Assembly (NCBI GenBank): GCA_003818505.1
Contig: RPRI01000041.1
Coordinates: 1 to 35,698 of the forward strand
DNA: 35,698 nt
Source of the DNA: Desulfobacteraceae bacterium
Lineage (GTDB): Bacteria > Desulfobacterota > Desulfobacteria > Desulfobacterales > RPRI01
Reading direction: 5' to 3'
The position numbers and the translations under genes are program-made. The notes under the pieces are model-generated. The model was not told the origin of the DNA. It saw only the letters and a program-made list of their open reading frames with translations, and did not search any database. Shown in pieces: positions 15,528 through 34,551 of the stretch (position 1 is its first letter; the number at the start of each line of letters is the position of its first letter).

Positions 15528-16250
15528 CTATTTTAAAAAAAAGTGCATTTTAACGGAACCTATTTCTATAACATCAAAATCCTTAAGCTGAACGGATTCG
15601 CTTACAGAGTTTCCGTTAACTTTGGGTTTTGAACCACTTCCTTCATAGCTTATGAAATAACCACCCGGTCTTTTGCTTATTGTGGCGGCAACCTGGCCGA
15701 CCATAAATCCGCCTACTACTATATCATTGGTAGATGCCTTTCCGATCTTGAAAAGCTTTTTTAATATTTCCTTTTCTCCATCACCGCCGGATACGAAGGA
15801 TAAAATCCCAACAGGCTCTTTCTCCTGGGGTTTTGCAGCCGGTGAAGCTGAAGCAGTACCGGGTGAGCTCTTAGCCAGCATTGACTTATACGAGCTTGTA
15901 TCCATGACCATGGTTTGATCCATGTCTTCTGGGCCGGCAGCTTCAGTTCTGGCCTCCCCTTCCTTGTATTTAAAAACAAGAGTATGCTTGCCAATTGTTA
16001 TGACATCGCCGTGTTTGAGCCAATGCGAAGAGACAAACTGCTCATTCACAAAGGAACCATTTTTGCTCTGAAGGTCTGTCAGCAAAAAGCCGTCTCCAAC
16101 GGAGTCTACCTTGGCGTGGTGTCCTGATACGGCGAGATTGTCGATAATGATATTGTTATCTTCCCGCCTTCCGATATTGAGTGATTTTTCCTTCTCAAGA
16201 ACATATTCGGAAATAACAGAATCTTTGAATTTAAGTGTCAAAGTCGGCAT
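15528..16250 (-). CDS. Double FHA-domain protein
   Basis: 240 residues. The N-terminal FHA (about 8-100) has its key residues: Gly27-Arg28 (LNIGRRED), Ser43-x-x-His46 region (VSGHHAKV) and Asn64-Gly65 (SKNGSFVNE), so it should bind phosphothreonine. A Pro/Ala/Ser-rich linker contains TMVMDTSSYK, a Thr-containing stretch typical of kinase-target segments. The C-terminal half (about 155-240) is a second, degenerate FHA (LFKIGKASTNDIVV, KPKVNGNSV, KDFDVIEIGSVKMHF) without the Ser/His contacts. GAGGT lies 6 bases before the start. It sits 22 bases after the PP2C gene. It probably is the reader of the phosphorylation made by the neighbouring kinase. Confidence 0.88.
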   Translation of the reverse strand: MPTLTLKFKDSVISEYVLEKEKSLNIGRREDNNIIIDNLAVSGHHAKVDSVGDGFLLTDLQSKNGSFVNEQFVSSHWLKHGDVITIGKHTLVFKYKEGEARTEAAGPEDMDQTMVMDTSSYKSMLAKSSPGTASASPAAKPQEKEPVGILSFVSGGDGEKEILKKLFKIGKASTNDIVVGGFMVGQVAATISKRPGGYFISYEGSGSKPKVNGNSVSESVQLKDFDVIEIGSVKMHFFLK

Positions 16251-16272
16251 TGCATTACCTCATTAATTTAAC

Positions 16273-17109
16273 CTATTTGAAAGAAAAGTTATAAACAATA
16301 TTCCATATTTTTGATAGCAACCCTCTTAATGCGCCCTTTTTATTTTTTTTGTCTTTAACCTTTAAAACAATGACGGTCACATTATCGTCGCCTCCCCGCT
16401 CATTTGCAAGATCTACAAGGGCCTGGCATGTTTTCTGAAGTTTCTCATTTTTCACCGTTTCAAGTATCTCTTCAGGGGTAACCTTGTCGGATAATCCATC
16501 GGAGCTCAATACCAGTATATCTCCCTTGAAGCAAGGAGTTTCACATACGTCAGGCTTGAGGGTCAATCCTATACCGACTGCCTGGGTAAGCATATGCCTG
16601 AAATGAGGGCCTAATTTTCTTGCCCCTTCGGGATCAATAGCCGCCTGTTCGGCAAGAACAGTATGCGGCACAGAAAGAAGCTCTATGCTGCCGTCATGTA
16701 TCAAATAAATGGGACTATCCCCCACATTTGCGGCTATCAGGTTCTCTTCCGTGAAAAGTACCGCTGAGACGGTAGAACCCATTCCTTGGTATGATTCATT
16801 GGTTTGGGATAAACCGTAAATTCCTTTGTTGGCGAGATGTATGCTTGAAACAAGCCTGTTGGCATATTTCGAAAGGGAGTTGTCAGAATCTTCCAGTTCT
16901 TCAACTTCGCTGCTATTATCATTAAAACGCTTCATGTAATCATGGATGGTCTTGACTACAATATTGCTGGCAACCTCTCCAGCCTTGTGTCCACCCATAC
17001 CATCTGCAACAACAAAAAGATTCATTGAGTCATCAAGGAGCAGGGCATCTTCATTGCCTTTTCTTTTTCTGCCAACATCACTGATGCCTGTTGATTCGAT
17101 TACTAGCAT
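16273..17109 (-). CDS. PP2C-type Ser/Thr protein phosphatase
   Basis: 278 residues, full-length catalytic domain of the bacterial PP2C (Stp/PrpC) type. Metal-ligand motifs are all present: GNEDALLLDD (Asp21), VVADGMGGHKAGE (Asp36-Gly37), LSSDGLSDKV and the final GGDDNVTVIVL. A short basic C-terminal extension (KKNKKGALRGLLSKIW) follows and may touch the membrane. It should remove phosphate from Ser/Thr on the kinase encoded just upstream and its targets. A promoter-like site lies about 80 bases upstream, and the FHA gene follows after 22 bases. Confidence 0.92.
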   Translation of the reverse strand: MLVIESTGISDVGRKRKGNEDALLLDDSMNLFVVADGMGGHKAGEVASNIVVKTIHDYMKRFNDNSSEVEELEDSDNSLSKYANRLVSSIHLANKGIYGLSQTNESYQGMGSTVSAVLFTEENLIAANVGDSPIYLIHDGSIELLSVPHTVLAEQAAIDPEGARKLGPHFRHMLTQAVGIGLTLKPDVCETPCFKGDILVLSSDGLSDKVTPEEILETVKNEKLQKTCQALVDLANERGGDDNVTVIVLKVKDKKNKKGALRGLLSKIWNIVYNFSFK

Positions 17110-17189
17110 GTAAACTATGTTCCCTATACCGACGAATTAAAACACCGCATGAAATGGCTTAGGAAATGATCCGATATTAATTTTTTTCT

Positions 17190-17218
17190 AATATATAATA
17201 AAAACTTATTGCGGTCAA
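17190..17218 (-). promoter_or_regulatory. Promoter before the PP2C-FHA genes
   Basis: On the minus strand TTGACC (17218-17213) and TATATT (17195-17190) are separated by exactly 17 bases, a good sigma-70-type match, about 80 bases before the PP2C start. It would let the phosphatase and FHA genes be transcribed apart from the kinase. A CTTTGC-GCAAAG hairpin (17248-17266) just after the kinase stop could separate the units. Confidence 0.5.
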
Positions 17219-17275
17219 GTATTTAAAGTCGAAACGATATATTAAAGCTTTGCATTTCGCGCAAAGAAGAATGTG

Positions 17276-19822
17276 CTAATTACTTCCTGATTTCATCTTT
17301 GCGAGAGCAGCTTCGATCCTTCTGCCGACCTCCCTCAGGTCTGCCGCCATCTGGGATGCCTTCTGGTAACGTTTTCCCCGGTTTTTTTCAAGAGCCTTGT
17401 CGATAATAGTTACAAGGGGCTTTACGATTTTAGGGTTGATCTGTTTCGGATCAGGATGTTTAACGTTCATTATCTGGTTCATGAGCGCTGCAGGGCTTTC
17501 CCCGAAGAAGGGAAGCCGCCCGGTTAAGAGCTGGAAAAACATTGTTCCCAGGGAAAATATATCGGATCTTCCGTCAACTTTTTCTCCGGAGAACTGCTCC
17601 GGGGACATGTAATAGGGTGTGCCTTTCACAACACCGGTCTGTGTCTGAGAAGTTGCCGTGATTCTTGCGATGCCAAAGTCGGTAATTTTAACCACGCCGC
17701 TTTTTAAGAGCATTATATTTGCAGGTTTAATATCCCTGTGCACGATTCCCTTCTGGTGTGCGTAATCCAACGCTTCAGCGATGCTTGCAACATAATCGAT
17801 GACTCTTGGTATCGGAAGAAGATTTTCCTTTCGGGTATATTTTTCAAGATCCTCCCCCTCAAGGTATTCCATGGCAATGAAAGCCAGGTTTTGATCATCT
17901 CCGGCATCGTAAATAGTTACTATGTTCGGATGGGAAAGAGTTCCGGCGCTTTCCGCTTCCCTGAAAAATTTCTCTTTCATTTTCTTCACTTCTTCAGGTC
18001 TCTGTTCTTCGCTGAACCGGAAAGTTTTAATGGCGGTTGTTCGGTTTATTCTGGGGTCCATCCCCAGGTAGACGATTCCCATGGCACCTTTCCCTAACTG
18101 TTTTTGTATCTCATACCTACCAAGCGTGGGTTTAGTTCCAGTGCCAGTAGCAAGAAATCCGTCTGCCGACGGAGCGGATCCAAGAGTTCCGTCTCCGAAG
18201 ATCATCGTATCGCTTGCCTGTATTAGCTTCTTTTTTCTTTCGGTTACATCCTTGAATTTGCTGTCATGCTCTTCCACATATTCATATACCGATGCCGCTT
18301 TGTTGAACTGCCTCTTTCTTTCGTAATCAAGCGCAAGGTTATAAAGAATATCCTTCATCTGGTCATCCACGGGAACACGGCGGAATTTATCGAAGGCCAT
18401 GTCGAGCATTCCCTGTCCCTGAAAAGAAATCCCCAGCATGCGGTTTGTTTCTGCTGATTCGCCTTCGATCTTCTCTTTTTTTGTTTCGGTTACAAAATAT
18501 TTAAGGCTTATTACTCCTATATAACCGATTGTCAGTTCAAGGACAGGGTATATTGTGCGAATCCAGTTTCCGTTCGATATAAAAAAGAAAAGGGAACTTC
18601 CTATAAGCAAAATAAGAATCGAAATGAAAGTCACGCCTGCCGACATAGCTTTAAGTTTCGGGAAAAGGAAGGTGATTAAAAGACCGAGTATAAGAATCGT
18701 GATTAGCTCGGCTACAGGACTCCAGTATGGCTGTTGAATGAATTTATTATTGAGTATTGCCCACATGGTATGTGCGGAAAACTCGCCGATGGACATGGCA
18801 GAATCAGTGGGCGTGCTTATTGGGTTCATAAGCCCGGATGCCGAAGCGCTTACGAGAACAAGCTTGTTTTTGAAAACATTGGGTGGGATTTTATCGTTGA
18901 TTATGTCGAAGAATGAAAACCGCTTGAAAGAGCCGCCCGGACCTTTGAAGTTAATCAGCAGTTCGGAAGTTGAGGTGGTGGGTATTTTCAGCGTGCCCAG
19001 GTTGACGTTTGAACCTAATTCGGCCGATATTTTTTCCCTTGGAATATTAAGATAAACAGATGCAAGTTTTAAAGTGTATGACGGGAAGAAGAGACCTTGG
19101 TATTCATAAACAAGCCGCTCCCTTCTTGCAATACCGTCCATATCACTGCCGAAATTTATATGGCCTAAACCGGTTGAAGCTTCAACAAATGAAGGTATCG
19201 GGAGTACTATTTCATCAGCACGGTAGTACTCGGCACCGGCTGGACTTCTTATCTTCTGGATCGAATAGGCAGTTAGGGAAGCATCGGCTTTTTGTATTTC
19301 TCCGCCTCCAGCCATGGTTTCCCTAAAAAAAACCGGTAGAACGACTTTCCCTGATTCCCTTATTGCTTCAGCAAGTTTTTTGTCGTTATCAAGCCTTTCC
19401 ATGGTGTTTTGCAGGGCCTGAAGATATGATATGCCTTTTTCGCCGGCTTTATCCGAAAAAGTTGCCGTAAAAAGCGTTTCCAGCTCCTTAACCGTTTTTA
19501 ATCCGGTGCTTTCTTCGGGTTCGCTCAGTATCAGGTTAAGCCCTATTACCTTCGGTTCTCCCGAATTTATTTTTTTTATACCATCTGCCAGTATGTTGCG
19601 TGGCCAAGGCCAGCGCCCTATTTTTTCAATCGAGTCATCATCTATATCAACGATTATAATATCGCTTTGTGAACCGGGGTCACCTCGTAACCCAACCATT
19701 ACATTATAAAGTTTGAGTTCAAGGATATCGAGAAAATCCATGCGAATCAAACCTAACCCCAAAAACAGGATAGTTATTCCAATTCCCATAAAAAGCATCG
19801 GATTTTTTTTAAAGAGATTCAT
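17276..19822 (-). CDS. CHASE2-domain transmembrane Ser/Thr protein kinase
   Basis: 848 residues. Order: N-terminal membrane segment (about 9-27), CHASE2 extracytoplasmic sensor (about 30-355; IIIVDIDDDSIEKIGRWPWPR is its hallmark), three membrane segments (about 365-440), a short TPR-like region (about 465-530), a Thr/Ser-rich linker with DTMIFGDGTLGS, and a Hanks-type kinase domain (about 565-835). The kinase keeps all key residues: LGKGAMGIVYLG loop, Lys in AIKTF, HRDIKPANIML, DFG in ITDFGIA, SPEQF and a Thr-rich activation loop (TATSQTQTGVVKGT). An active enzyme that reports an envelope signal is predicted. Upstream GGAG lies 9 bases from the ATG. It opens the kinase-phosphatase-FHA block. 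Confidence 0.92.
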   Translation of the reverse strand: MNLFKKNPMLFMGIGITILFLGLGLIRMDFLDILELKLYNVMVGLRGDPGSQSDIIIVDIDDDSIEKIGRWPWPRNILADGIKKINSGEPKVIGLNLILSEPEESTGLKTVKELETLFTATFSDKAGEKGISYLQALQNTMERLDNDKKLAEAIRESGKVVLPVFFRETMAGGGEIQKADASLTAYSIQKIRSPAGAEYYRADEIVLPIPSFVEASTGLGHINFGSDMDGIARRERLVYEYQGLFFPSYTLKLASVYLNIPREKISAELGSNVNLGTLKIPTTSTSELLINFKGPGGSFKRFSFFDIINDKIPPNVFKNKLVLVSASASGLMNPISTPTDSAMSIGEFSAHTMWAILNNKFIQQPYWSPVAELITILILGLLITFLFPKLKAMSAGVTFISILILLIGSSLFFFISNGNWIRTIYPVLELTIGYIGVISLKYFVTETKKEKIEGESAETNRMLGISFQGQGMLDMAFDKFRRVPVDDQMKDILYNLALDYERKRQFNKAASVYEYVEEHDSKFKDVTERKKKLIQASDTMIFGDGTLGSAPSADGFLATGTGTKPTLGRYEIQKQLGKGAMGIVYLGMDPRINRTTAIKTFRFSEEQRPEEVKKMKEKFFREAESAGTLSHPNIVTIYDAGDDQNLAFIAMEYLEGEDLEKYTRKENLLPIPRVIDYVASIAEALDYAHQKGIVHRDIKPANIMLLKSGVVKITDFGIARITATSQTQTGVVKGTPYYMSPEQFSGEKVDGRSDIFSLGTMFFQLLTGRLPFFGESPAALMNQIMNVKHPDPKQINPKIVKPLVTIIDKALEKNRGKRYQKASQMAADLREVGRRIEAALAKMKSGSN

Positions 19823-23617: not shown

Positions 23618-23719
23618 TTGGAAATCAGAATCCTGCTGAGATTGAACAGCGTAGAATCTATTCCGGGGAAGGCGAGGTTTTTTTTAACGACTATTGAAAA
23701 AATGCTTGACATGCGATGA
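23618..23719 (+). CDS. Possible 33-codon small ORF before the aro leader
   Basis: A TTG start is preceded by AGGAAGGA about 8 bases upstream, then 33 codons (beginning LEIRILLRLNSVESIPGKAR as written, first residue read as Met) to a TGA that lies just after the TTGACA box of the aro promoter. The ribosome site is good but the family is unknown. It may be a truncated gene remnant or chance. Confidence 0.25.
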   Translation: MEIRILLRLNSVESIPGKARFFLTTIEKMLDMR

Positions 23720-23734
23720 GGGGCAATATAGATG
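23706..23734 (+). promoter_or_regulatory. Promoter for the aromatic amino acid operon leader
   Basis: TTGACA at 23706-23711 is a perfect -35 hexamer. The -10 is either TATAGA (23727-23732, 15-base spacer) or TAGATG (23729-23734, 17-base spacer). Transcription would start about 45 bases before the leader peptide ATG. Confidence 0.5.
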
Positions 23735-23785
23735 ACCTAAAATAAAATTGAACGGACAAATAAAAAAGGGCCCTATACAAAACAG

Positions 23786-23860
23786 ATGAATAAATTCACA
23801 GGCAGCTTTTTCGGTTTTTATTATTATTACTTTAGCACCGGTCTGCCTGTGGTGCGTTGA
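23786..23860 (+). CDS. Phe/Tyr-rich leader peptide of the aro operon (attenuator)
   Basis: 24 codons, ATG to TGA. Codons 8-16 read Phe-Phe-Gly-Phe-Tyr-Tyr-Tyr-Tyr-Phe, with another Phe at codon 4: five Phe and four Tyr in 24 residues. A short peptide stacked with the end-product amino acids of the operon that follows is the hallmark of ribosome-mediated attenuation (compare pheL of enterobacteria, which is Phe-rich). The aromatic codons lie between the two arms of a perfect 9-base stem (23797-23805 with 23843-23851), and tandem terminators follow. No strong Shine-Dalgarno is seen; AAGGG is about 15 bases upstream. That the peptide is translated is inference, but chance clustering of this kind at this exact place is unlikely. 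Confidence 0.85.
   Translation: MNKFTGSFFGFYYYYFSTGLPVVR
23797..23851 (+). promoter_or_regulatory. Attenuator hairpin 1:2 enclosing the Phe/Tyr codons
   Basis: CACAGGCAG (23797-23805) and CTGCCTGTG (23843-23851) are perfectly complementary. A ribosome stalled on the Phe/Tyr codons would cover arm 1 and free arm 2. Arm 2 (GCC-T-GTGG) can pair, with one bulged base, to CCACGGC in the right arm of the first terminator, giving a possible antiterminator. Confidence 0.65.
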
Positions 23861-23880
23861 GGTAGTTACATACTAAGCGC

Positions 23881-23917
23881 AAAAAGCCATGGGTGGATGA
23901 ACCCACGGCTTTTTTTG
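23881..23917 (+). terminator. Intrinsic terminator 1 of the aro attenuator
   Basis: GCCATGGGT (23886-23894) pairs with ACCCACGGC (23901-23909) with one mismatch and a GGATGA loop, flanked by AAAAA and followed by seven T. It is a strong rho-independent terminator 20 bases after the leader peptide stop. Confidence 0.85.
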
Positions 23918-23921
23918 TTTT

Positions 23922-23956
23922 AAAGGCCGTGGAGAGAAAAGCTTCACGGCCTTTTT
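23922..23956 (+). terminator. Intrinsic terminator 2 of the aro attenuator
   Basis: GGCCGTG (23925-23931) pairs with CACGGCC (23945-23951); flanking AAA/TTT and inner pairs lengthen the stem, and TTTTT follows. It lies only 10 bases before the Shine-Dalgarno of the first operon gene. Its left arm can instead pair with the right arm of terminator 1 (CCACGGC with GCCGTGG), which would break both terminators. Confidence 0.8.
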
Positions 23957-23977
23957 GCATTAAAAAAGGAGTTGTAC

Positions 23978-24775
23978 ATGACAATTATGGGCAAGCAGAT
24001 CAGGATGGAGCGCATTATCAACCGCAACACGGGCAGGACTGTTATAGTTCCGATGGATCATGGCATTTCCGTTGGGCCTATTGCCGGCCTTGAGGATATG
24101 AAGCGTGCGGTGCAAATGGTTGCCGACGGCGGTGCGAACGCCATAGTTGAACATAAAGGGCTTGTGGGGGCGGGGCACAGACGAAAAGGAAAGGATATAG
24201 GACTTATTATTCACCTTTCGGCATCAACAAGCCTTTCTCCTTATCCGAACGCAAAGACACTGGTATGTTCTGTCGAAGAGGCTATAAAGATCGGCGCGGA
24301 TGCCGTTTCCATACATGTAAATCTCGGAAACGGCGGTGAAAAGGAGATGCTGAGAGATTTCGGTATGGTCAGTTATGAAGCAAAAACATGGGGCATGCCG
24401 CTTCTTGCCATGATATATCCGAGGGGTGAGAAGATTAAAGATGAATACGACGTAAATGTCATCAAACATGCAGCCCGTGTCGGAAATGAAATGGGAGCGG
24501 ATATAGTAAAAGTATCCTATACAGGCTCAGTTGAAACATTCAAAGAGGTGGTGGCCGGGTGTTCGGTTCCGGTAGTGATTGCAGGCGGCCCGAAGATGGA
24601 TTCGGACAGGGAGATACTTGAAATGGTAAAGGGTGCAATTGATGCCGGAGGCGCGGGCGCTTCGATAGGCCGCAACGTGTTCCAGCATAAAAACCCGACG
24701 AAGATGGTGCAGGCTATATCGGCGATAGTTCACGACGGCGCGAGCGTGGAAGACGCACTTGAACTTCTTGGTTAG
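23978..24775 (+). CDS. 2-amino-3,7-dideoxy-D-threo-hept-6-ulosonate synthase (AroA', DhnA-type aldolase)
   Basis: 265 residues from ATG 23978, set by AGGAG six bases upstream; a TTG two codons earlier is less likely. It belongs to the class I DhnA/FbaB-type aldolases: PMDHGIS (Asp27), MIYPRGEKI (Tyr147) and the Schiff-base Lys178 in [10 protein letters not shown]. With a DHQ synthase II gene directly downstream, the archaeal-type role is preferred: it joins 6-deoxy-5-ketofructose-1-phosphate and aspartate semialdehyde to give ADH, replacing DAHP synthase. A fructose-bisphosphate aldolase role is the alternative, less likely given the operon. It is the first gene after the Phe/Tyr attenuator. 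Confidence 0.88.
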
Positions 24776-24886: not shown

Positions 24887-25879
24887 ATGCGAAGAATATG
24901 GGTGAGGGCTGATCCATGGGACAAGGAAATCGTTACCACCGCTCTTGAAGGCGGAGCGGACGGAATCGTTGTTCCGAAGGGATATTCCGAAAGAGTAAAA
25001 GAACTCGGTAAAATCCTGACGATTTCGGAAGACGGGGATTTGAAAACCGGGGAAGATGTAGTATTTTTTACCATGACAAGCGGCAAAGACGAGGATGAAA
25101 TATTAAGACTTTGCGCGAACAGGAAAGTAATTCTTCAGTGCGGCGACTGGACGGTGATACCCCTTGAAAACCTTATAGCAAAGGGAGCTGATGTAATCGC
25201 CCAGGTGCACAGTTATGAGGAAGCCTGTACCGTATTCGGCATACTTGAAAAAGGCGTGCGGCATATTCTTTTTTATTCGGATGATATCGCACAGCTGAAG
25301 AAAACATTGTCCATAGTCAATTCGGAGTCGGAGAAGGTAAAACTTCAGGAGGCCGAGATTGTCGAGGTCACTCCCGCGGGAATGGGTGACAGGGTATGTG
25401 TTGACACATGCACATCAATGGTGCAGGGCCAGGGACTTCTTGTCGGCAACAGCAGCAGCGCGCTTTTTCTTGTTCACGCTGAAACTGTTGAAAATCCATA
25501 CGTGTCGCCGAGGCCCTTCAGGGTCAATGCGGGCGCGGTTCACGCCTATACGAGGGTTCCGGGCGGAAAGACGAGATACCTTTCGGAGCTTGCGGCAGGC
25601 GACCGGATTCTTATTACGGATTACAGGGGGAACATGACCGGCGGTATTATCGGGAGGCTGAAAATTGAAAAGCGTCCCCTGATGCTTGTGAAAGCGGCGG
25701 CCGGAGAGAGGCAGATCACGACAATTCTGCAAAATGCCGAAACAATAAGACTTACAAGTCCGGACGGAACTCCCGTTTCAGTCGTCAGTTTGAAAAAAGG
25801 GGATAAGATCCTCATTGCCGCGGAAGAGAGCGGAAGGCATTTCGGCCATAAGATAGACGAATCGATAACGGAAAAATAA
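24887..25879 (+). CDS. 3-dehydroquinate synthase II (AroB')
   Basis: 330 residues, typical of the archaeal-type enzyme. The start MRRIWVRADPWDKEIVTTALEGGADG and the central signature GDRVCVDTCTSMVQGQGLLVGNSSSALFLVHAE followed by RPFRVNAGAVHAYTRVPGGKTRYLSEL are diagnostic. It oxidatively deaminates and cyclises ADH to 3-dehydroquinate with NAD+, replacing AroB. An AGGATAGGATA ribosome site precedes the ATG, 111 bases after the AroA' gene. Together the two genes supply the first cyclic intermediate from aspartate semialdehyde. Confidence 0.93.
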   Translation: MRRIWVRADPWDKEIVTTALEGGADGIVVPKGYSERVKELGKILTISEDGDLKTGEDVVFFTMTSGKDEDEILRLCANRKVILQCGDWTVIPLENLIAKGADVIAQVHSYEEACTVFGILEKGVRHILFYSDDIAQLKKTLSIVNSESEKVKLQEAEIVEVTPAGMGDRVCVDTCTSMVQGQGLLVGNSSSALFLVHAETVENPYVSPRPFRVNAGAVHAYTRVPGGKTRYLSELAAGDRILITDYRGNMTGGIIGRLKIEKRPLMLVKAAAGERQITTILQNAETIRLTSPDGTPVSVVSLKKGDKILIAAEESGRHFGHKIDESITEK

Positions 25880-26190
25880 GAATCAGGGTGCAGGGTTCGG
25901 GTGTTAAAGGATTCAAGCAGCCGGAAACCAGGCGGCGTGAGGCGGGCCGCCTGCGGCGGTAAAAGGGAAAAGGTGTAAGTCGTAAGGCGTGAGGCAAAAC
26001 GACTGTAAAAGGTAAAAAGTAAAGGATTCAAGGATTCAAGTGGTCAAGGGTTCAAGAGGTCAAGTAACCAGAAACCAGCAACCATGAGAGCCGAAGATGG
26101 AAAAGCCGTAAATCGAATATCGAAATTCGGGTATCTGACTGCCGCATATAAAGCCCCGGATCATTTAACAAACGTACAGTGCGAAGAATT
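25880..26190. other. Repeat-rich gap inside the aro operon
   Basis: This 311-base gap between aroB' and pheA is low in complexity, purine-rich on the plus strand, with reiterated AAGGATTC, GGCGTGAGGC and GTAAAAGG words and a GC-rich palindromic patch (GGCGGGCCGCCTGCGGCGG, about 25940-25960). No gene is seen. It may be a spot where a gene, for example a dehydroquinate dehydratase, was lost or where repeats expanded. Confidence 0.5.
26022..26064 (+). repeat. Tandem 8-base repeat
   Basis: Five consecutive 8-base units, AAGGATTC, AAGGATTC, AAGTGGTC, AAGGGTTC and AAGAGGTC, plus a final AAG. Partial matches to the unit lie a little upstream (AAAGGATTCAAG at 25908-25919). Confidence 0.85.
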
Positions 26191-27351
26191 ATGGATAAAA
26201 TAATCATGAATAAAAAAATAAAATCAAATGCCGCAGAAGAGGGGATTACGAATATCAGGCATTCCATCGACCGGATTGATGAAAAAATTCTTTCCCTCAT
26301 AAACAGGCGGCTTCTTCTGGCAAAAAAGATAGGCAGATTAAAAGAGAAAGAGGGAAACAGGGTTCTTGATATCGCCCGTGAAAGCACCCTGATACAAAGG
26401 CTTAACAGCATAAATGAAGGGCCGCTGAGTAAAAGCGCCCTTCATCATGTGTTCGCGGAAATTATCGCGGCATCGCGCGAAATCCAAAAGAATCATTCGG
26501 TTGCTTATCTTGGTCCCGAGGCTACCTTTACTCATATAGCCGCCATAAATTACTTCGGGCAGTCTGTCAATTACGCGCCTCAGGTGACAATACGCGACAT
26601 ATTCTGCGAAGTGGAGAAAGGAGCCTGTCATTACGGGGTTGTTCCTGTTGAGAACTCCATTGAAGGTTCGGTTAACTATACGCTGGACCTTTTTTTTGAA
26701 TCGGATTTAAAAATATGCGCTGAATTATACCATCCGATATCCCACGATCTTCTGTCAAAGAGCGACTCTCCGGGGGAAATAAAAACCATTTATTCACATC
26801 CCCAGGCCTTTGCCCAGTGCAGGAAATGGATAGAGAAGAAGCTTCCGGGAGCCGTGCTTGTAGAAAGCGACAGCACCGCTCATGCAGCGCGAAAAGCTGC
26901 CGATGATCCGAAATCGGCAGCTATCGCAAGCAGCAAGGCGGCGCACATCTATAATCTCCAGGTAATGGCATCAAAGATTGAAGATATATCGCGGAACACA
27001 ACGAGGTTTCTTGTTATCGGAAAAGATGATATTAAAAGAACAGGATCGGATAAAACTTCCGTGATGTTCGTGACTTCTCATGTTCCGGGGGCATTATACA
27101 GGGCGTTAAAACCGGTTGCCGAAGCGGGTATAAACATGGTTAAACTTGAGTCAAGGCCTACAAAGCATGAAAACTGGAGTTATTTTTTCTTTGTTGATCT
27201 TGAAGGTCATGCTGAAGACAAGATTGTTGCCCAGACAATAATGAAAATGAAAAAACTCTGCCTTTTCTTAAAATGCCTCGGATCATACCCGCTGGCAAGA
27301 GAAGGCATTTACGGATCTGTTACAAAACAGTCAGGAAAGCTTATAAAATGA
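26191..27351 (+). CDS. pheA: Chorismate mutase/prephenate dehydratase (P-protein)
   Basis: 386 residues from ATG 26191; an in-frame GTG at 26179 and ATG at 26206 are alternatives, none with a strong ribosome site. Order: AroQ-type chorismate mutase (about 20-100, RHSIDRIDEKILSLINRRLLLAKKIGRLK), prephenate dehydratase (about 105-285, VAYLGPEATFTHIAA, VVPVENSIEGSVNYTLDL and the catalytic NTTRFLVIG), and a C-terminal ACT domain (about 295-375, GALYRALKPVAEAGINMVKLESRP) for Phe feedback inhibition. It converts chorismate through prephenate to phenylpyruvate. Its place in an operon with a Phe/Tyr leader explains the regulation. Its stop overlaps the aroE start. Confidence 0.95.
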   Translation: MDKIIMNKKIKSNAAEEGITNIRHSIDRIDEKILSLINRRLLLAKKIGRLKEKEGNRVLDIARESTLIQRLNSINEGPLSKSALHHVFAEIIAASREIQKNHSVAYLGPEATFTHIAAINYFGQSVNYAPQVTIRDIFCEVEKGACHYGVVPVENSIEGSVNYTLDLFFESDLKICAELYHPISHDLLSKSDSPGEIKTIYSHPQAFAQCRKWIEKKLPGAVLVESDSTAHAARKAADDPKSAAIASSKAAHIYNLQVMASKIEDISRNTTRFLVIGKDDIKRTGSDKTSVMFVTSHVPGALYRALKPVAEAGINMVKLESRPTKHENWSYFFFVDLEGHAEDKIVAQTIMKMKKLCLFLKCLGSYPLAREGIYGSVTKQSGKLIK

Positions 27352-28172
27352 GATTCGATACAGACAGTTCGGTTTATGCCCTCTTCGGTGATCCGGTATC
27401 CCATTCCTTAAGCCCTGTCATGCATAACAGTGCTTTTGAATTTACAGGCTATAAAGGCTTATATCTTGCCTTTGAAGTCAAAAACATAAAAAACGCTCTT
27501 ATCTCGGTAAAGACTCTCGGCATAAAGGGCGCTAGCGTCACCATTCCGCACAAGATAGAGGTGATGAAGCATCTGGATGTAATTGACGATATGGCCGTTA
27601 AAATCGGCGCGGTAAATACGATAATAAATATCGGAGGATATCTCAAGGGATATAACTCCGATGGACTTGGCGCCGTAAAAGCCCTGTCCGAAAAAACCTT
27701 GATCAACGGAAAGAAGATTGCCGTCATAGGAGCAGGCGGCGCCGCCCGCGCTGTTGCGTTCTGCCTGAAGAAAGAAGGCGGAAGAATAACCGTCATAAAC
27801 CGGAGCAGGGATAAGGGGGAGCGGCTCGCGGAGGATCTTATTTCAGATTATCGTCCGCTAAACGATACAGGCAGCATGGATCATGATATTTTAATCAATA
27901 CGACTCCTGTAGGAATGACACCCCATACGGAAGGAATGCCCATTGAAAGAAGGTATCTTGAAAAGGGCATGGTTGTGATGGATATCGTCTATAATCCGCT
28001 GAAAACACTTTTTCTATCAGAGGCTGAAAAGGCGGGATGTGTTACTATTGACGGTCTTTCGATGTTTGTGCACCAAGGCGCCTTTCAATTTGAATTATGG
28101 ACCGGAATAAAAGCGCCGGTTGATATCATGAAAACGACGGTTTTAAGCGCCCTGCAACCCCTTGAACTCTAA
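27348..28172 (+). CDS. aroE: Shikimate 5-dehydrogenase
   Basis: 274 residues. ATG at 27348 overlaps the pheA stop (ATGA), showing translational coupling, and opens the conserved substrate motif VYALFGDPVSHSLSPVMHN. Further signatures: NTIINIGGYLKGYNSDGLG, the NADPH-binding GAGGAARAV with INRSRDKGERL, and NTTPVGMTPHTEG. It reduces 3-dehydroshikimate to shikimate. There is no fused dehydroquinate dehydratase domain, so that step must come from elsewhere. Confidence 0.95.
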   Translation: MRFDTDSSVYALFGDPVSHSLSPVMHNSAFEFTGYKGLYLAFEVKNIKNALISVKTLGIKGASVTIPHKIEVMKHLDVIDDMAVKIGAVNTIINIGGYLKGYNSDGLGAVKALSEKTLINGKKIAVIGAGGAARAVAFCLKKEGGRITVINRSRDKGERLAEDLISDYRPLNDTGSMDHDILINTTPVGMTPHTEGMPIERRYLEKGMVVMDIVYNPLKTLFLSEAEKAGCVTIDGLSMFVHQGAFQFELWTGIKAPVDIMKTTVLSALQPLEL

Positions 28173-28194: not shown

Positions 28195-29463
28195 ATGATA
28201 GAAATATTTCCGGGAATCAATAACCGGTGCGAAGTCAGTGTCCCGGGATCAAAGAGCTATACACATAGGCTTTTGATTGCCTCTGCGCTGTCGGACGGGA
28301 TCTGCACGATAAAGAACTGCCTCAGGAGTGAAGATACTCTTCTTACTCTTGAAGCTTTGAGGAAAATGGGCGCGGATATCGATGATTCTGCCGGTGAAAT
28401 TACCGTTTGCGGCACAAAAGGGGATCTTAAAGCCTACAATGAACCGGTATTTCTCGGAAATTCCGGGACATCAATGCGCCTGCTTACGGGAGTAGCCGCG
28501 CTTGGAAGCGGCTGTTATACACTGACCGGGGCCAGCCGCATGTCCGAGCGTCCGATCGGGGATCTCCTTGACGGTTTAAAAAGCCTTGGAGTCGACGCCC
28601 GGTCTCTTAATAATAACGGATGTCCTCCCCTGGTAATAAAAGGCGGAAAAATAATGGGAGGCAGGATCGGGCTGAAATGCGGTTTAAGCAGCCAGTTCCT
28701 TTCCTCGATTCTTTTAATAGCTCCGTACACCGAGAAAGGTGTGGAAATAAAAGTTGTTGAAGGTCCGGTATCAAAACCATATATAGACATGACGATTGAT
28801 ATAATGGCAAAATCCGGTGTCAGTGTAAAACGGGACGGATATTTAAGATTCAGTGTCAAAGGAGGCGGGTGTTACAGGGCGGGAAATCATTATGTTGAGC
28901 CGGATTGTTCACAGGCAGGGTATTTCTGGGCAGCGGCGGCAGTTACAGGGGCTGAAATTAAAGTCAGAGGAATTACGAAAGACTCACGGCAGGGGGATCT
29001 TAATTTAACCGGATTGCTTGAGAAGATGGGGTGTAAAATAATATCCGAAAAAGACGGCATTTCTGTAAGGGGCGGATCCCTTGTTGCTATTGAAGCTGAT
29101 ATGGCCGATATGCCCGACATGGTTCCCACCCTGGCTGTTGTCGCTTCCTTTGCGAAAGGAACCACCGTAATAAAGAATGTGGGGCACCTCAAGGAAAAAG
29201 AGAGCGATCGCCTCCTGGCCGTTGTAAATGAACTGTCAAAAACAGGCATAGAAGCCGGTTGCACGGAAACGGATCTGTTTATAAAAGGGGGAGCTCACCG
29301 GGGCGCCGAAATCGACACATATAACGACCACAGAATCGCCATGAGTTTCGCAATAGCGGGACTTAAGGTCCCGGGCGTATTCATCAAAAATGAAAAATGC
29401 GTCGAAAAGTCTTTCCCGGATTTCTGGAAAGTGCTTGAGGCTCTCGGCCGGCAGACAGGCTGA
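28195..29463 (+). CDS. aroA: 3-phosphoshikimate 1-carboxyvinyltransferase (EPSP synthase)
   Basis: 422 residues, full length. Signatures: VPGSKSYTHRLLIASALSDG, FLGNSGTSMRLLTGVAAL, LKCGLSSQFLSSILL, the catalytic Asp in DMPDMVPTLAV, KNVGHLKEKESDRL and YNDHRIAMSFAIAGL. It joins shikimate-3-phosphate and PEP. The motif LGNSGTSMR has Ser-Gly-Thr-Ser where many class I enzymes have NAGTAMR, a class II-type feature. It starts 22 bases after aroE. Confidence 0.95.
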   Translation: MIEIFPGINNRCEVSVPGSKSYTHRLLIASALSDGICTIKNCLRSEDTLLTLEALRKMGADIDDSAGEITVCGTKGDLKAYNEPVFLGNSGTSMRLLTGVAALGSGCYTLTGASRMSERPIGDLLDGLKSLGVDARSLNNNGCPPLVIKGGKIMGGRIGLKCGLSSQFLSSILLIAPYTEKGVEIKVVEGPVSKPYIDMTIDIMAKSGVSVKRDGYLRFSVKGGGCYRAGNHYVEPDCSQAGYFWAAAAVTGAEIKVRGITKDSRQGDLNLTGLLEKMGCKIISEKDGISVRGGSLVAIEADMADMPDMVPTLAVVASFAKGTTVIKNVGHLKEKESDRLLAVVNELSKTGIEAGCTETDLFIKGGAHRGAEIDTYNDHRIAMSFAIAGLKVPGVFIKNEKCVEKSFPDFWKVLEALGRQTG

Positions 29464-29519
29464 AGGCGGATAGATTAATAGAGACAGTCTTTTTCTGTTT
29501 GGACCAAATATTTTGGAAT

Positions 29520-30050
29520 ATGAATATATATCTGATCGGATACCGGTGCACTGGAAAAAGCATAGTCGGGAAACTTCTTGCCGTAAAACTCGGTATGAAA
29601 TTTACTGACGCGGATGTTGAGATTGTGAACAGCGCCGGAAAATCTATTTCCGAAATTGTTGAAAAAACAGGATGGGACGAATTCCGGAGAATCGAGAAGA
29701 ATATCATCAGGGAACTTTCCGCTCTTAAAGGGCATGTTGTCGCAACAGGAGGAGGGGCGGTTCTTGACGGCGATAATGCTGAATATATGAAGAATACCGG
29801 AATCGTAGTCTGGCTCAGGGCGACATCTCCGACGATAAGCCAAAGAATGAAAACGGATCACGGAACAAAAGATTTCAGGCCGGCTCTTACCGTAAAAGGA
29901 GCGATAGGGGAGATTGACGAAATATTATCCGCCCGTAAACGCTTTTATGAAAAGGCGATGGATTTTTATATTGATACGGATAATCGCGATATAAGCGCTA
30001 TATGCAGTGATATTATAAATCTGGTTGGAAATGTAAAGGAAAAACAATAA
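29520..30050 (+). CDS. aroK: Shikimate kinase
   Basis: 176 residues from ATG 29520; a TTG seven codons upstream is unlikely. Walker A motif GYRCTGKSIVGKLLA, the acidic shikimate-binding DADVEIVN, GWDEFRRIEKNII and the VATGGGAVLDGDN loop are all present. It phosphorylates shikimate with ATP. The final TAA overlaps the aroC start in TAATG, so the two genes are translationally coupled. Confidence 0.94.
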   Translation: MNIYLIGYRCTGKSIVGKLLAVKLGMKFTDADVEIVNSAGKSISEIVEKTGWDEFRRIEKNIIRELSALKGHVVATGGGAVLDGDNAEYMKNTGIVVWLRATSPTISQRMKTDHGTKDFRPALTVKGAIGEIDEILSARKRFYEKAMDFYIDTDNRDISAICSDIINLVGNVKEKQ

Positions 30051-31105
30051 TGCCCGGAAACTCTTTCGGAACATTGTTCAGAATAACAACCTGGGGAGAA
30101 TCCCACGGTGAGGCGGTTGGCGTTGTCATTGACGGATGCCCGCCGGAGATACCGCTTAATGAATCGGTAATCCAGGATATGCTGGAGAGGCGAAGGCCCG
30201 GAGGGTCTTTCGTGAGCAGTTCGCGAAAGGAGCCTGACAGGGCAATCATCATGTCGGGCGTTTTTAAAGGTATGACGACCGGGACTCCTGTAATGATAAT
30301 GATAAAAAACAGCGATGCCCGTCCGGAATCGTACGAAAAGATATCGGATCTGTTCAGGCCGGGGCATGGTGATATAACATACCAGGCGAAATACGGAATA
30401 AGGGACTGGCGGGGCGGAGGAAGAGCTTCGGCAAGAGAGACTGTTTCGAGAGTCGCAGCGGGCGCCGTGGCGAAAGCTGTCCTGGAACATGAAAAAATAT
30501 ACGTATCCGCATGTACGGTCGAGCTTGGAGGGATAAAAGCCGTAACGCATGATCCGGATGCCGTATCCGGAAACATCTTCATGTGTCCCGATACGAAGGC
30601 CGCTCTCAAAATGGAAAAACTGGTAAAGGATGTCAAAAAGAGCGGCGATTCTGTCGGCGGCATAGTCGAGATAACCGCAAACGGCGTTCCGGTCGGCCTG
30701 GGGGAACCTGTTTTTGACAAGCTTGACGCCGATATCGCAAAAGGCCTGATGAGCATAGGCGCAGTCAAGGGAGTTGAAATCGGAGTCGGTTTTAAAGCCG
30801 CGATCCTGAAAGGTTCTGAAAATAATGATCCCATAACACGCCGGGGCTTTTTGACCAATAACGCAGGAGGAATTCTTGCCGGGATATCAAACGGAGATGA
30901 AATAGTGGTTCGCGTCGCGGTCAAGCCGATTCCTTCCATTGAAAAAGAGCAGAAGACGGTCGATCTTTCCGGAAAAGAGAGAACAATATCCGTCAGGGGA
31001 AGACATGATGTATCCGCCATACCGCGGATTAATGTTGTTTGCGAGTCGATGGTAAGCATTGTGCTGGCGGATCATTTATTGAGGCAGAGGGCTGTCGGGA
31101 GATGA
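30050..31105 (+). CDS. aroC: Chorismate synthase
   Basis: 351 residues. Signatures: SFGTLFRITTWGESHGEAVGVVIDGCPP, the flavin/substrate loops FRPGHGDITYQAKYGIRDWRGGGRASARET, and SVRGRHDVSAIPRINVVCESMVSIVLADHLLRQ near the end. It forms chorismate from EPSP and needs reduced FMN. It is the last recognisable gene of the operon; its start overlaps the aroK stop. Confidence 0.96.
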   Translation: MPGNSFGTLFRITTWGESHGEAVGVVIDGCPPEIPLNESVIQDMLERRRPGGSFVSSSRKEPDRAIIMSGVFKGMTTGTPVMIMIKNSDARPESYEKISDLFRPGHGDITYQAKYGIRDWRGGGRASARETVSRVAAGAVAKAVLEHEKIYVSACTVELGGIKAVTHDPDAVSGNIFMCPDTKAALKMEKLVKDVKKSGDSVGGIVEITANGVPVGLGEPVFDKLDADIAKGLMSIGAVKGVEIGVGFKAAILKGSENNDPITRRGFLTNNAGGILAGISNGDEIVVRVAVKPIPSIEKEQKTVDLSGKERTISVRGRHDVSAIPRINVVCESMVSIVLADHLLRQRAVGR

Positions 31106-31608: not shown

Positions 31609-33582
31609 ATGCCTGAATATTTCTCAAATGAAGAGTTTCAAGCGGAAGTCGAAAAGCGCAAACATGCCGAAGCTGAGCTTCGTGAGTATGTTGATAAGTT
31701 CAATGACCTGGCAGAGGCTTGTGCGGATGTAGTTCTTTATCATGATCTGCAGGGCAACATAGCTTTTATAAACGAAGCCGGGCTTAAATTTACCGGTTTC
31801 ACCAGGAATGAAGCTCTCAGGGCGAATATTATAGACGTGATTCCGGAGAAATACCTTTTACCGATGCTTGAAAGACAGAAACGAAGAAAAGCAGGATATG
31901 AGAAACGAAATGTATATGAAATCGCATATGTAAACAAGAATGGCGCATCGATTCCTCTTGAAGTAAATTCCATCATGGTTAAGGATAAAGGAGTTCCTTA
32001 CATACTTCTGGTTGTTCGCGATCTGAGGCTTTACAAGCAAAAAGAAAGGGAGTTGTCTGAAAACAGGGAAAAATTTCAGAATATACTTAACAGCATAGAA
32101 GACGGTTACTATGAGGTTGATCTGAAAGGCAGAATCGTTTTTTGCAATGAATCTCTTTGCAGAATACTTGGTTATTCCAAAGACGAGGTTACAGGAAAGA
32201 GCTACCGCGAAAGTGTTGATGAGGAGAACGGGAAGAAGCTCCTTGAGGCGTTCAATAATGTTTTCAAAACAGGCGGAACTTCGAAGGTATTGGACTGGGA
32301 GGTAATCAGGAAAGACGGCTCGAAACGTTTTGTGGAGGCTTCAATAGCCCTTGTCAAAGACCCTGAGAATGTGCCGGCAGGTTTTCGGGGATTAGTCCGC
32401 GATATTACGGAACGCAAACAGGCCGAGGAGGAACACAAAAAATTCGAACTTCAGATGCGGCACGCGCAGAAAATGGAGGCTATCGGCACTCTTGCAGGAG
32501 GCATTGCCCATGATTTCAACAATATTTTGATGAATATTCAGGGCAACGTGTCGATTATGATGATGGAGATTGATCCTGCCGATCCGTTTTATGAAAACCT
32601 CAAAAAAATTGAGGATTCGGTTGAAAAGGCCTCGGGCCTGACAAGGCAGATACTCGGATTCGCGCGGGGCGGTAAATACGTTATAAAGGAGATAGACCTG
32701 AATGAACTTGTTGGCAGAACAGCACAGCTTTTCGGCCGAGCGCGAAAAGAGATAAATATTCAGACGAAGTTTCAGGATAACGCATGGTCCGTTAAGGCGG
32801 ATCAGAGCCAGATAGAGCAGGCGCTTTTGAATATTTATTTAAACGCGTGGCAGGCAATGCCTTCGGGAGGGAATCTTTATATTGTAACAGGTAATGTCCT
32901 GATAGATGAAAACTATATCAAGAAATTTGCGATAACGCCCGGCAGATATGTCATGATATCAATAACGGATACGGGCGTTGGAATGGACGAAGCGACCAAG
33001 CAGAGAGTTTTTGATCCTTTTTTTACCACCCGTGAGATCGGGAGGGGCACAGGCTTAGGCCTTGCGTCTGTTTATGGAATAATAAAGAATCACGACGGAT
33101 TCATAAATGTATACAGCGAAAAAGGAAAAGGAAGCACGTTCAATATATACCTGCCGGCCTTCGGGAAGGTTAAGGAAGAGAAAAAGAAAGAAACCGAGAG
33201 CCGTATTCCGGGAACCGGAACGATTCTGTTTGTTGATGATGAGCAAATGATAATTGATGTGGGGCAGGCGATATTAAAAAAACTGGGATACAATGTTATT
33301 ATAGCAAAAGGAGGTCAGGAGGCTGTAGATCTTTATACAAAAAACAGGGATAAAATAGACCTTGTCGTTCTTGATATGATAATGCCGGATATTCCCGGAA
33401 GCGAAGTATTTGACAGAATAAGGGAGTTGAACCCGACGGTGAAGGTTTTACTCTCAAGCGGATATGCTCTCGACGTCCAGACTTCCGGAATAATGGAAAA
33501 AGGCTGTAACGGTTTTATTCAAAAGCCCTTTAATGTTAAGAAGCTTTCGGCCAAACTCAATGAAATTCTCCATGGGCAATAA
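31609..33582 (+). CDS. PAS-PAS hybrid histidine kinase with C-terminal receiver
   Basis: 657 residues, soluble. A short coiled start (EVEKRKHAEAELREYVDKF) leads into PAS 1 (about 30-142) and PAS 2 (about 153-270, ending GLVRDITERKQAEEE). The phosphoacceptor is His301 in GGIAHDFNNIL, the NtrB-like H-box. HATPase motifs: NIYLNAWQAMPSGG, TDTGVGMDEATKQRVFDPFFTT and GTGLGLASVYGI. A receiver follows (about 535-655) with phosphoacceptor Asp589 in LVVLDMIMP, the acidic pair in VDDEQ and Lys in IQKPFN. A cytoplasmic sensor with intramolecular relay is predicted; no output domain or separate regulator is nearby. The btuF-like gene begins 61 bases after its stop. Confidence 0.92.
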   Translation: MPEYFSNEEFQAEVEKRKHAEAELREYVDKFNDLAEACADVVLYHDLQGNIAFINEAGLKFTGFTRNEALRANIIDVIPEKYLLPMLERQKRRKAGYEKRNVYEIAYVNKNGASIPLEVNSIMVKDKGVPYILLVVRDLRLYKQKERELSENREKFQNILNSIEDGYYEVDLKGRIVFCNESLCRILGYSKDEVTGKSYRESVDEENGKKLLEAFNNVFKTGGTSKVLDWEVIRKDGSKRFVEASIALVKDPENVPAGFRGLVRDITERKQAEEEHKKFELQMRHAQKMEAIGTLAGGIAHDFNNILMNIQGNVSIMMMEIDPADPFYENLKKIEDSVEKASGLTRQILGFARGGKYVIKEIDLNELVGRTAQLFGRARKEINIQTKFQDNAWSVKADQSQIEQALLNIYLNAWQAMPSGGNLYIVTGNVLIDENYIKKFAITPGRYVMISITDTGVGMDEATKQRVFDPFFTTREIGRGTGLGLASVYGIIKNHDGFINVYSEKGKGSTFNIYLPAFGKVKEEKKKETESRIPGTGTILFVDDEQMIIDVGQAILKKLGYNVIIAKGGQEAVDLYTKNRDKIDLVVLDMIMPDIPGSEVFDRIRELNPTVKVLLSSGYALDVQTSGIMEKGCNGFIQKPFNVKKLSAKLNEILHGQ

Positions 33583-33643
33583 AGAGCCTTTTCACCGTAA
33601 ACAATTTCACCAAAAACCGCGGGTTTCCATCAATATCCGGAAC

Positions 33644-34549
33644 ATGAAATTATTTTTCCACCTTATGATTTTCCTGATAGTTATTCCGCTTTGTCATTCA
33701 GGCTTTTCCGAAGTATCTGCCGGGATAGTTACTGATCCGCTGGGACGAAAGGTAAATGTCCCCCGGAATCCGCGAAGTATAATATCTCTGGCGCCCAGCA
33801 TTACTGAAATTATTTTTGCCCTGAATCGCGAGAACCTCTTAAAGGGTGCGACTCTCCATTGCGATTATCCGGCCGGGGCAAAGCTTCTCCCGAGAGTCGG
33901 CTCCTATGTCGGACTGGACTTGGAAAAGATCATATCTTTAAAGCCTGATCTCTGCATTGCGATAAAGGACGGAAATCCGCAACATGTTATTGACCGGCTG
34001 GCATCTTTCGGAATACCGGTTTATGCAGTTGATCCGAGAAACATTGATTCTGTGATGAATACTATTCTCTCGATCGGCGGCCTTCTTGGCGCAGATAAGA
34101 GAGCGGAATTTCTGGTTAAAAACATGCGGTTGCGCATAAGGCATTTAACGGAGATGGTCGCAGCAACGCCTCACAAGCCAAGAGTATTCTTCCAGATAGG
34201 GACAGCGCCTGTCGTCTCTGTGGGAACCCGGACATATATTCATGAGCTGATTCTGCTCGCAGGGGGCATAAATGTAACGGCGGGAGATACACCCTATCCG
34301 AGCTTCAGCCGTGAACAGCTGATCGCCTTTTCACCGGAAATTATCATTATCACCTCAATGGAAAAAAGCGATGCGTTTGAGCAGGTTCTGGCGGAATGGA
34401 ATAAATGGCCGCAGATTGAGGCGGTCCGCAATAAGCGTATATACGTGGCCGATTCGGACCTTTTTGACAGACCTTCACCGCGCCTCATTGAAGGCCTTGA
34501 GCTGCTTGTCAGGTTAATTCATCCGGAACTGTTCGGGAATAATAAATAA
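33644..34549 (+). CDS. btuF: Periplasmic cobalamin/iron-chelate-binding protein of an ABC importer
   Basis: 301 residues from ATG 33644, which opens a signal peptide (KLFFHLMIFLIVIPLCHSGFSEVSAG); the frame is open further upstream, overlapping the kinase gene, but that extension is not conserved-looking. The body is a class III (helical-backbone) binding protein: VTDPLGRKVNVPRNPRSIISLAPSITEIIFALN, GSYVGLDLEKIISLKPDLCIA, and AGGINVTAGDTPYPSFSREQLIAFSPEIII. It delivers cobalamin or a siderophore to the permease encoded next. BtuF versus FecB/FhuD-type cannot be told from sequence alone. Spacing of 2 bases to the permease gene shows an operon. Confidence 0.85.
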   Translation: MKLFFHLMIFLIVIPLCHSGFSEVSAGIVTDPLGRKVNVPRNPRSIISLAPSITEIIFALNRENLLKGATLHCDYPAGAKLLPRVGSYVGLDLEKIISLKPDLCIAIKDGNPQHVIDRLASFGIPVYAVDPRNIDSVMNTILSIGGLLGADKRAEFLVKNMRLRIRHLTEMVAATPHKPRVFFQIGTAPVVSVGTRTYIHELILLAGGINVTAGDTPYPSFSREQLIAFSPEIIIITSMEKSDAFEQVLAEWNKWPQIEAVRNKRIYVADSDLFDRPSPRLIEGLELLVRLIHPELFGNNK

Positions 34550-34551
34550 TT

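Follow-up and report, generated by a model that had tools for sequence, protein, structure and literature searches.

The region upstream of the aromatic amino acid operon described here is, judging from its sequence and conservation, highly likely to be a working ribosome-mediated transcription attenuator controlling aroA'-aroC. This attenuator would very probably sense charged tRNA-Phe and tRNA-Tyr, so that the operon is on only when these amino acids are scarce. The window (the whole stretch of DNA that was analysed, 35,698 nucleotides of contig RPRI01000041.1 from a Desulfobacteraceae bacterium) carries a short ORF rich in Phe and Tyr codons upstream of a seven-gene operon in the order aroA'-aroB'-pheA-aroE-aroA-aroK-aroC. 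This order, already proposed in a sequence-only reading of the same DNA, was recovered with NCBIfam models. The first gene starts at ATG 23978, preceded by a ribosome site at 23966-23971. The operon genes, all on the plus strand, are:

23978-24775, plus strand: aroA' (2-amino-3,7-dideoxy-D-threo-hept-6-ulosonate synthase), first operon gene; TIGR01949, 379 bits, cut-off 299
24887-25879, plus strand: aroB' (3-dehydroquinate synthase II); NF002627, 493 bits, cut-off 392
26179-27351, plus strand: pheA (chorismate mutase / prephenate dehydratase); NCBIfam
27348-28172, plus strand: aroE (shikimate dehydrogenase); NCBIfam, start inferred, mechanical ORF from 27273
28195-29463, plus strand: aroA (EPSP synthase); NCBIfam
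29499-30050, plus strand: aroK (shikimate kinase); NCBIfam, every match below the curated cut-off
30050-31105, plus strand: aroC (chorismate synthase); NCBIfam

Two other gene groups of the window were noticed by eye. Adjacent genes for an FHA-domain protein, a PP2C-like phosphatase and a CHASE2-like Ser/Thr protein kinase (15528-19822, minus strand) likely form a phospho-signalling cluster, and the genes at 33533-35553 resemble those for the periplasmic binding protein and permease of a cobalamin/siderophore-type ABC transporter.

The leader combines a promoter-like site, the short ORF and six RNA arms that can form five mutually exclusive hairpins between neighbours (1:2, 2:3, 3:4, 4:5 and 5:6), two of which, 3:4 and 5:6, are intrinsic terminators. 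Its features are:

23706-23732, plus strand: promoter-like site, -35 TTGACA at 23706-23711 and -10 TATAGA at 23727-23732, with a 15-nt spacer
23786-23860, plus strand: leader peptide ORF MNKFTGSFFGFYYYYFSTGLPVVR, ATG, 24 codons and UGA, sensor codons mainly 8-16
23797-23805, plus strand: arm 1, which in folds pairs with 23843-23851 of arm 2 around the aromatic codons
23841-23853, plus strand: arm 2, with arm 1 or arm 3 as partner (folds, pair counts)
23854-23880, plus strand: small hairpin within the antiterminator (folds), its 5' side overlapping the leader end
23886-23898, plus strand: arm 3, in its antiterminator pairing with arm 2 (2:3; -26 kcal/mol for 23838-23900)
23881-23916, plus strand: terminator T1, hairpin 3:4 (23881-23894 with 23901-23914) and U run
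23903-23932, plus strand: relay hairpin 4:5, T1 3' arm 23903-23913 with T2 5' arm 23922-23932 (-16.6 kcal/mol)
23922-23956, plus strand: terminator T2, hairpin 5:6 (23922-23934 with 23942-23954) and U run

The sequence-only reading had described this layout well. Its ORF proved exact to the codon (Tyr at codons 12-15, Phe at codons 4, 8, 9, 11 and 16, UGA at 23858-23860), the promoter-like site that it placed upstream of the ORF is present, the stem that it saw around the aromatic codons folds, and its two terminators were found again. As expected of an attenuator leader, the ORF is short and rich in codons for end products, its translation being predicted; by eye, it has no strong Shine-Dalgarno sequence. 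The coordinates place the stop codon where a terminating ribosome can cover arm 2. Our promoter pattern scan accepted spacers of 16-18 nt only, which leaves the TTGACA-15-TATAGA site outside its list; we set aside the scan's own matches and used the TTGACA-15-TATARA site instead. TTGAC[AT] recurs in 81 of the 83 upstream regions of sufficient length, with a TATAAA-like consensus 15 nt downstream of it. A terminator consensus scan listed T1 only in part and did not list T2. In the 80 aligned sequences introduced below, the T1 U tract is present in 77 and the T2 U tract in 76, after five leaders with no clear T2 had been set aside.

Eight aromatics within 10 residues occur in a single one of the 682 short ORFs (12-50 aa, both strands) of the whole window, and the folding z-score of 23770-23980 is -5.2, none of 200 shuffles being as stable. 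One could still imagine a chance ORF ahead of constitutive terminators, as the stretch is T-rich and 4 of 5000 first-order Markov resamples of 23700-23971 contain a stop-ended frame equally rich in aromatics. The conservation, the reading frame and the co-variation found across the 80 aligned sequences nevertheless make this explanation hardly credible.

The arms suggest how the attenuator would work. Under amino acid-replete conditions, the ribosome would reach the UGA just beyond arm 2 and cover this arm; arm 3 would pair with arm 4 to form T1, arm 5 with arm 6 to form T2, and transcription would end. Upon starvation, the ribosome would stall on the aromatic codons within the loop of 1:2, so that this hairpin could not close. 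Arm 2 would then capture arm 3 to form the antiterminator 2:3, which would free arm 4; free arm 4 would in turn capture the emerging arm 5, disarming T2, and the polymerase would pass both terminators. A second, independent terminator would halt the transcripts that had escaped the first one, a problem that the 4:5 pairing, which is absent from the sequence-only reading, seems to solve, and we consider it likely, from the sequence comparisons, that 4:5 is a functional relay.

Folds of the growing transcript follow this order. With everything before 23841 masked, as for a stalled ribosome, 2:3 forms at transcript end 23898 (-25.2), and at ends 23934-23946 the best structure is 2:3 plus 4:5 (-44.0 kcal/mol). 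With everything before 23873 masked, as for a ribosome at the stop codon, 3:4 forms first, and then 3:4 plus 5:6. The same behaviour is predicted for the relatives: in the stalled state before arm 6 exists, 2:3 plus 4:5 is formed in 79 of 80 sequences (the exception being L055), and the replete state yields 3:4 in 74/80, 5:6 in 74/80 and 4:5 in 6/80. In the stalled state, 3:4 is ahead of 2:3 by about 2 kcal/mol at ends 23916-23922, and 3:4 plus 5:6 is again more stable at ends 23952-23964, so that read-through would depend on kinetics and require trapping. We infer that the leader is translated, that ribosomes stall in it, that 2:3 and 4:5 are kinetically trapped and that read-through responds to the amino acids.

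The leader is widely conserved. AroB' (PF01959) was detected in 35 of 59 relatives and not in the other 24. Of the 28 loci where an aroA' start could be reached, present genome included, 27 have an aromatic-rich leader, the exception being L029 (AroA' 64% identical); L002 and L018, with no aroA' in reach, were dropped. The scan of named genomes used the best 80 of 150 loci, and once 14 duplicate upstream regions had been merged, 94 distinct regions were available in all. Most named-genome loci carry titles such as Desulfobacterales, Desulfobacteraceae or genera like Desulfonema and Desulfosudis; several are titled Proteobacteria or Deltaproteobacteria only, and one (L049) Candidatus Falkowbacteria. 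Counting the present locus, 86 of the 94 regions reach at least 400 nt; the eight shorter ones were left out (L043, L065, L079, L082 and L102, under 200 nt, and L064, L016 and L029), of which L064 and L016 have leaders. A short ORF with at least five aromatics in 10 residues is found in 84 of the 86 regions. At least six occur in 82/86, as against 10/480 control windows taken from the same loci on both strands and largely coding. Among the distinct regions, the leader is absent from L029, L066 and L075 and odd in L049. Without these four and the five shortest, 85 regions remain, chosen for at least five aromatics in 10; the presence of both Phe and Tyr in 85/85 leaders is thus conditional on this selection. 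Trp is present in 56/85.

With a covariance model built on the leader, matches were obtained in 217 of the 242 genomes of the order at E <=0.001 (142 of 147 among the better assemblies) and in 104 of 297 genomes across the phylum at E <=1e-5, order members included, with E-values that are rough and weak matches counted without inspection one by one. Ninety further AroA' loci (30 best and 60 hand-picked among the matches listed, some genomes contributing more than one) gave 55 upstream regions with at least six aromatics in 10. Four of these loci come from the order itself and are all positive; outside the order the count is 51/86, often with different peptide ends. Aromatic-rich leaders were seen in none of 10 loci of family f82 and in one of five of f103. 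The ORF and its aromatic codons are therefore kept in the order and beyond, contrary to the lack of conservation that the sequence-only reading had named as grounds for refuting it.

Co-variation was studied in an alignment of 80 sequences (79 distinct rows) from which five leaders without a clear T2 by eye (L034, L068, L100, L104 and L110) were excluded, so that all figures for T2 and 4:5 describe leaders that have T2. Arms 1 and 2 lie inside the ORF, flank the aromatic run and correspond in most relatives to SGR and GLP codons. A few extra leader codons are found in some relatives. These arms are 30 to 66 nt apart, a distance divisible by three in 79/80 sequences, unlike the lengths of two non-coding spacers, which spread over all three remainders. 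Standard pairs fill 90.6% of cells for 1:2, 86.7% for 2:3, 89.2% for 3:4, 95.3% for 4:5 and 95.0% for 5:6. Changes on both sides of a pair number 14, 13, 57, 23 and 45, respectively, with shuffle means of 3.6, 4.6, 19.6, 7.4 and 9.7, and for each helix none of 500 shuffles equalled the observed count; in 1:2 they occur at four of the seven pairs. Sliding the partner by columns lowers the paired fraction for all five helices: 2:3 slid by one column still gives 13 both-side changes, as in the true register, but only 39.7% of cells are then paired.

Because such shuffles ignore relatedness, we added an arm-swap test that compares the pairing energy of each arm with its own partner and with partners from other sequences. 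Pairing energy is lost on exchange for all five neighbouring helices (0/2000 permutations as good), and also with 45 and with 37 divergent representatives (0/5000 for each helix). No significant effect was obtained for the non-neighbours 3:6 and 1:4 in both runs, or for 2:5 and 1:6, which were run with divergent representatives only; 3:6 comes nearest (492/2000, 343/5000 and 302/5000). Since one tree is common to all arm pairs, relatedness alone does not account for 4:5. The five neighbouring helices thus co-vary by both approaches, as the sequence-only reading had expected of stems in relatives, and the conserved ORF, the frame and the helices together support the pheL-type logic that it had assigned to this locus.

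The same data bear on a rival explanation, a classical four-arm attenuator of the pheL/trpL type (1:2, 2:3 and 3:4) in which T2 is a plain back-up and 4:5 has no function. The three helices that it needs are each supported, and T2 is absent or unclear by eye in the five excluded leaders, while the few f94 and f61 leaders that were folded appear to have a single terminator, which indicates that T2 is dispensable somewhere. A plain back-up, however, would also halt the antiterminated transcript, and 4:5 is among the best-paired helices, with three times the both-side changes of its shuffles, and co-varies in the arm-swap test where 3:6 does not. Column 206 points the same way: its pair with the T2 partner is G.U in 47 sequences, and with its T1 partner it forms C-G in 60 and U-A in eight. 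Moreover, in L023, L025 and L047 (alignment) and in L135 and L139 (by eye) the U tract of the first hairpin is incomplete, yet the hairpin is retained; its only possible action there would be to hold arm 4. On the 4:5 pair counts and the arm-swap test we rejected a plain back-up role for T2, and the four-arm explanation as a whole seems to us unlikely.

A different objection concerns the sensor. The leader might encode an arrest peptide that senses free amino acid, or a peptide acting in trans, rather than respond to slow codon decoding. Its TGLPGVR-like end is well conserved within the order, and a trans-acting attenuator leader peptide, peTrpL, is described in PMC7298713. The conserved SGR and GLP codons, however, are also RNA arms 1 and 2, which co-vary; other families share the aromatic run with unrelated ends (CASTFKSP, ACGRGEVR-like); and the number and order of the aromatics vary. 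We therefore regard a peptide sensor as quite improbable. Still less probable is an RNA that binds a ligand or tRNA (riboswitch or T-box) and contains an ORF by accident. A leader and terminator ahead of an amino acid operon would suit it, but neither the window nor 20 related loci gave a match at gathering score to any Rfam family, riboswitches and T-boxes included, and reading frame and codon content are conserved. Ribosome-mediated attenuation remains the reading that we prefer for this leader.

Which aromatic amino acids are sensed appears to differ between leaders. There is no Trp in the leaders of L001, L008, L028, L032, L007, L017 and L021, so that the sensor here and nearby would be Phe plus Tyr. 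The Trp codons of the 56 leaders counted above indicate that in many relatives the sensor probably responds to all three aromatic amino acids, tRNA-Trp being probably sensed where such codons are present. The joint sensing of Phe and Tyr put forward in the sequence-only reading thus holds for the present leader, but not for many of its relatives, and a Phe-only or Phe/Tyr-only reading of the whole family was discarded on the same Trp counts. The proposed placement on the entry genes of the DKFP pathway likewise stands at this locus without being exclusive. We opened 20 hand-picked matches of the covariance model, and 14 of them precede DAHP synthase (NCBIfam), among them all six from genomes without detected PF01959; the remaining six precede pheA, aroE, trpE (two, one named by eye), aroA' and an aroK-like gene. 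The six AroB'-less genomes with DAHP synthase downstream rule out a strict tie of the leader to DKFP genes.

Ten genomes were then picked for having several matches, and 26 of their 48 listed matches were read, four of these being also among the 20 hand-picked ones; three were already known, and several of the other 19 duplicate a site on its opposite strand. Of the 26 read matches, one lies at a contig end and the other 25 are all followed by paaK or an aromatic amino acid gene. The genes following the 25 are aroA', DAHP synthases of two kinds, aroE, aroK-aroB, aroA, trpE, trpD and paaK, the scores of trpE and paaK being mostly just under curated cut-offs. Sensor codons often follow the downstream gene. 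A WWW, WWWW or WCW leader precedes all six trpE loci read. A WWWW leader also precedes a DAHP synthase of the TIGR01361/PF18152 kind in two relatives (L276 and L271), which suggests a Trp-dedicated isozyme under control at the RNA level; a third synthase of this kind (L275) has a Phe-rich leader instead. Phe-rich leader-like ORFs lie before three of five paaK (phenylacetate-CoA ligase) genes (L274, L270 and L281), suggesting Phe-controlled synthesis from phenylacetate at these loci. No clear leader was read before paaK of L277 and L279, and no Trp leader before trpD of L278.

Sister leaders are present in the genome studied here. On contig C78 (locus L254), a leader with Trp codons, MENFMNKLFDNTIGEYGIRVWCWRAYIQGLAGRTLLR, precedes trpE (47.5 bits) and its fold shows tandem terminators. 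On contig C163 (locus L255, reverse strand, about 3745-3950), a Trp-rich ORF, MSFNLWCWWRQEF, precedes iorA-iorB-paaK. It scores 32.7 bits (E 0.008) with one terminator seen, and its folding energy is only 2.2 standard deviations below that of shuffled sequences, a level that 5 of 200 shuffles also reach. It may thus be a sister leader too, less surely so than the trpE leader, and its Trp codons hint that the indolepyruvate oxidoreductase and arylacetate-CoA ligase encoded there could serve aromatic amino acid synthesis under Trp control. Between the trp attenuator and trpE of C78 (reverse strand, about 4046-3903) lies a segment whose ends are inverted, GAAGTCATTTCAAAACC ... GGTTTTGAAATGACTTC; it resembles a small mobile element or repeat that has inserted 3' of the terminators.

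Taken together, these observations lead us to favour, on balance, the following joint picture. The element would be a relay attenuator in which the 3' arm of T1, once freed, becomes the antiterminator of T2. It would represent a standing regulator of aromatic genes in Desulfobacterota, behind which the entry enzymes have been exchanged (AroA'/AroB' or DAHP synthase) and whose codons have been retuned gene by gene: Phe, Tyr and Trp for the common pathway, Trp for trpE, some DAHP synthases and ior, Phe for paaK and at least one other DAHP synthase. In this picture, the leaders also assign the ior-paaK genes to the making of aromatic amino acids from arylacetates. This would provide a candidate regulator of aromatic amino acid supply for a large and little-studied group of anaerobes, and a case of a regulatory RNA kept in the same place although the pathway's entry enzymes encoded behind it differ. 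With two terminators coupled, shut-off could be tight and yet leave induction unblocked, and codon content could help to assign functions to ambiguous genes, iorAB and paaK among them.

Searches at Rfam E-values up to 10 returned only sub-threshold matches to the leader. The leader scores 17.6 bits against Phe_leader (RF01859), whose gathering score is 55, and so falls outside this family; a weak match of the stretch to the trpB ncRNA motif (RF04312; 20.2 bits, gathering 59, E 1.5) likewise does not make it a member, and His_leader is not among the matches listed with E-values up to 10. In the enterobacterial pheA leader, pheL, a Phe-rich leader peptide with hairpins 1:2 and 2:3 and a 3:4 terminator precedes a Phe operon. 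The leader described here follows the same logic, with the three hairpins mutually exclusive and 3:4 an intrinsic terminator, but differs in having Tyr codons (and Trp codons in many relatives), common-pathway genes in its operon, two terminators instead of one and the 4:5 pairing. The his leader of Escherichia coli and Salmonella offers another parallel, with segments A-F that form A:B, C:D and E:F or, alternatively, B:C and D:E; to our knowledge, E:F is its sole terminator. The chain of alternating hairpins is alike, and 4:5 and 5:6 are predicted from pair counts, folds and the arm-swap test to correspond to the D:E antiterminator and the E:F terminator. C:D of the his type is not known to be a terminator itself, whereas 3:4 here has its own U tract in 77/80 sequences, and the sensor codons are aromatic instead of His. 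The sensing of several end products of a shared pathway by one leader peptide is found in the ilvGMEDA attenuator, for Ile, Val and Leu there and for Phe and Tyr (and Trp) here.

Proteobacterial attenuation was reportedly surveyed by Vitreschak and colleagues in 2004. Our literature search, which covered sources outside subscription papers, found no printed aromatic attenuator in this group, which leaves its absence unproven. Two terminators in series do occur in a delta-proteobacterium, as PMC545781 describes tandem THI elements, each with its own terminator, before thiSGHFE in Desulfovibrio; its main text mentions neither leader peptide nor aromatic, tryptophan or phenylalanine. Those are two riboswitch elements, whereas a single sensor would here serve two interlocked terminators. 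Leader-peptide attenuation as a kind is already known; what we call new is the sensing of several aromatic amino acids for the common pathway, the coupling of tandem terminators and the use of one leader before different entry enzymes.
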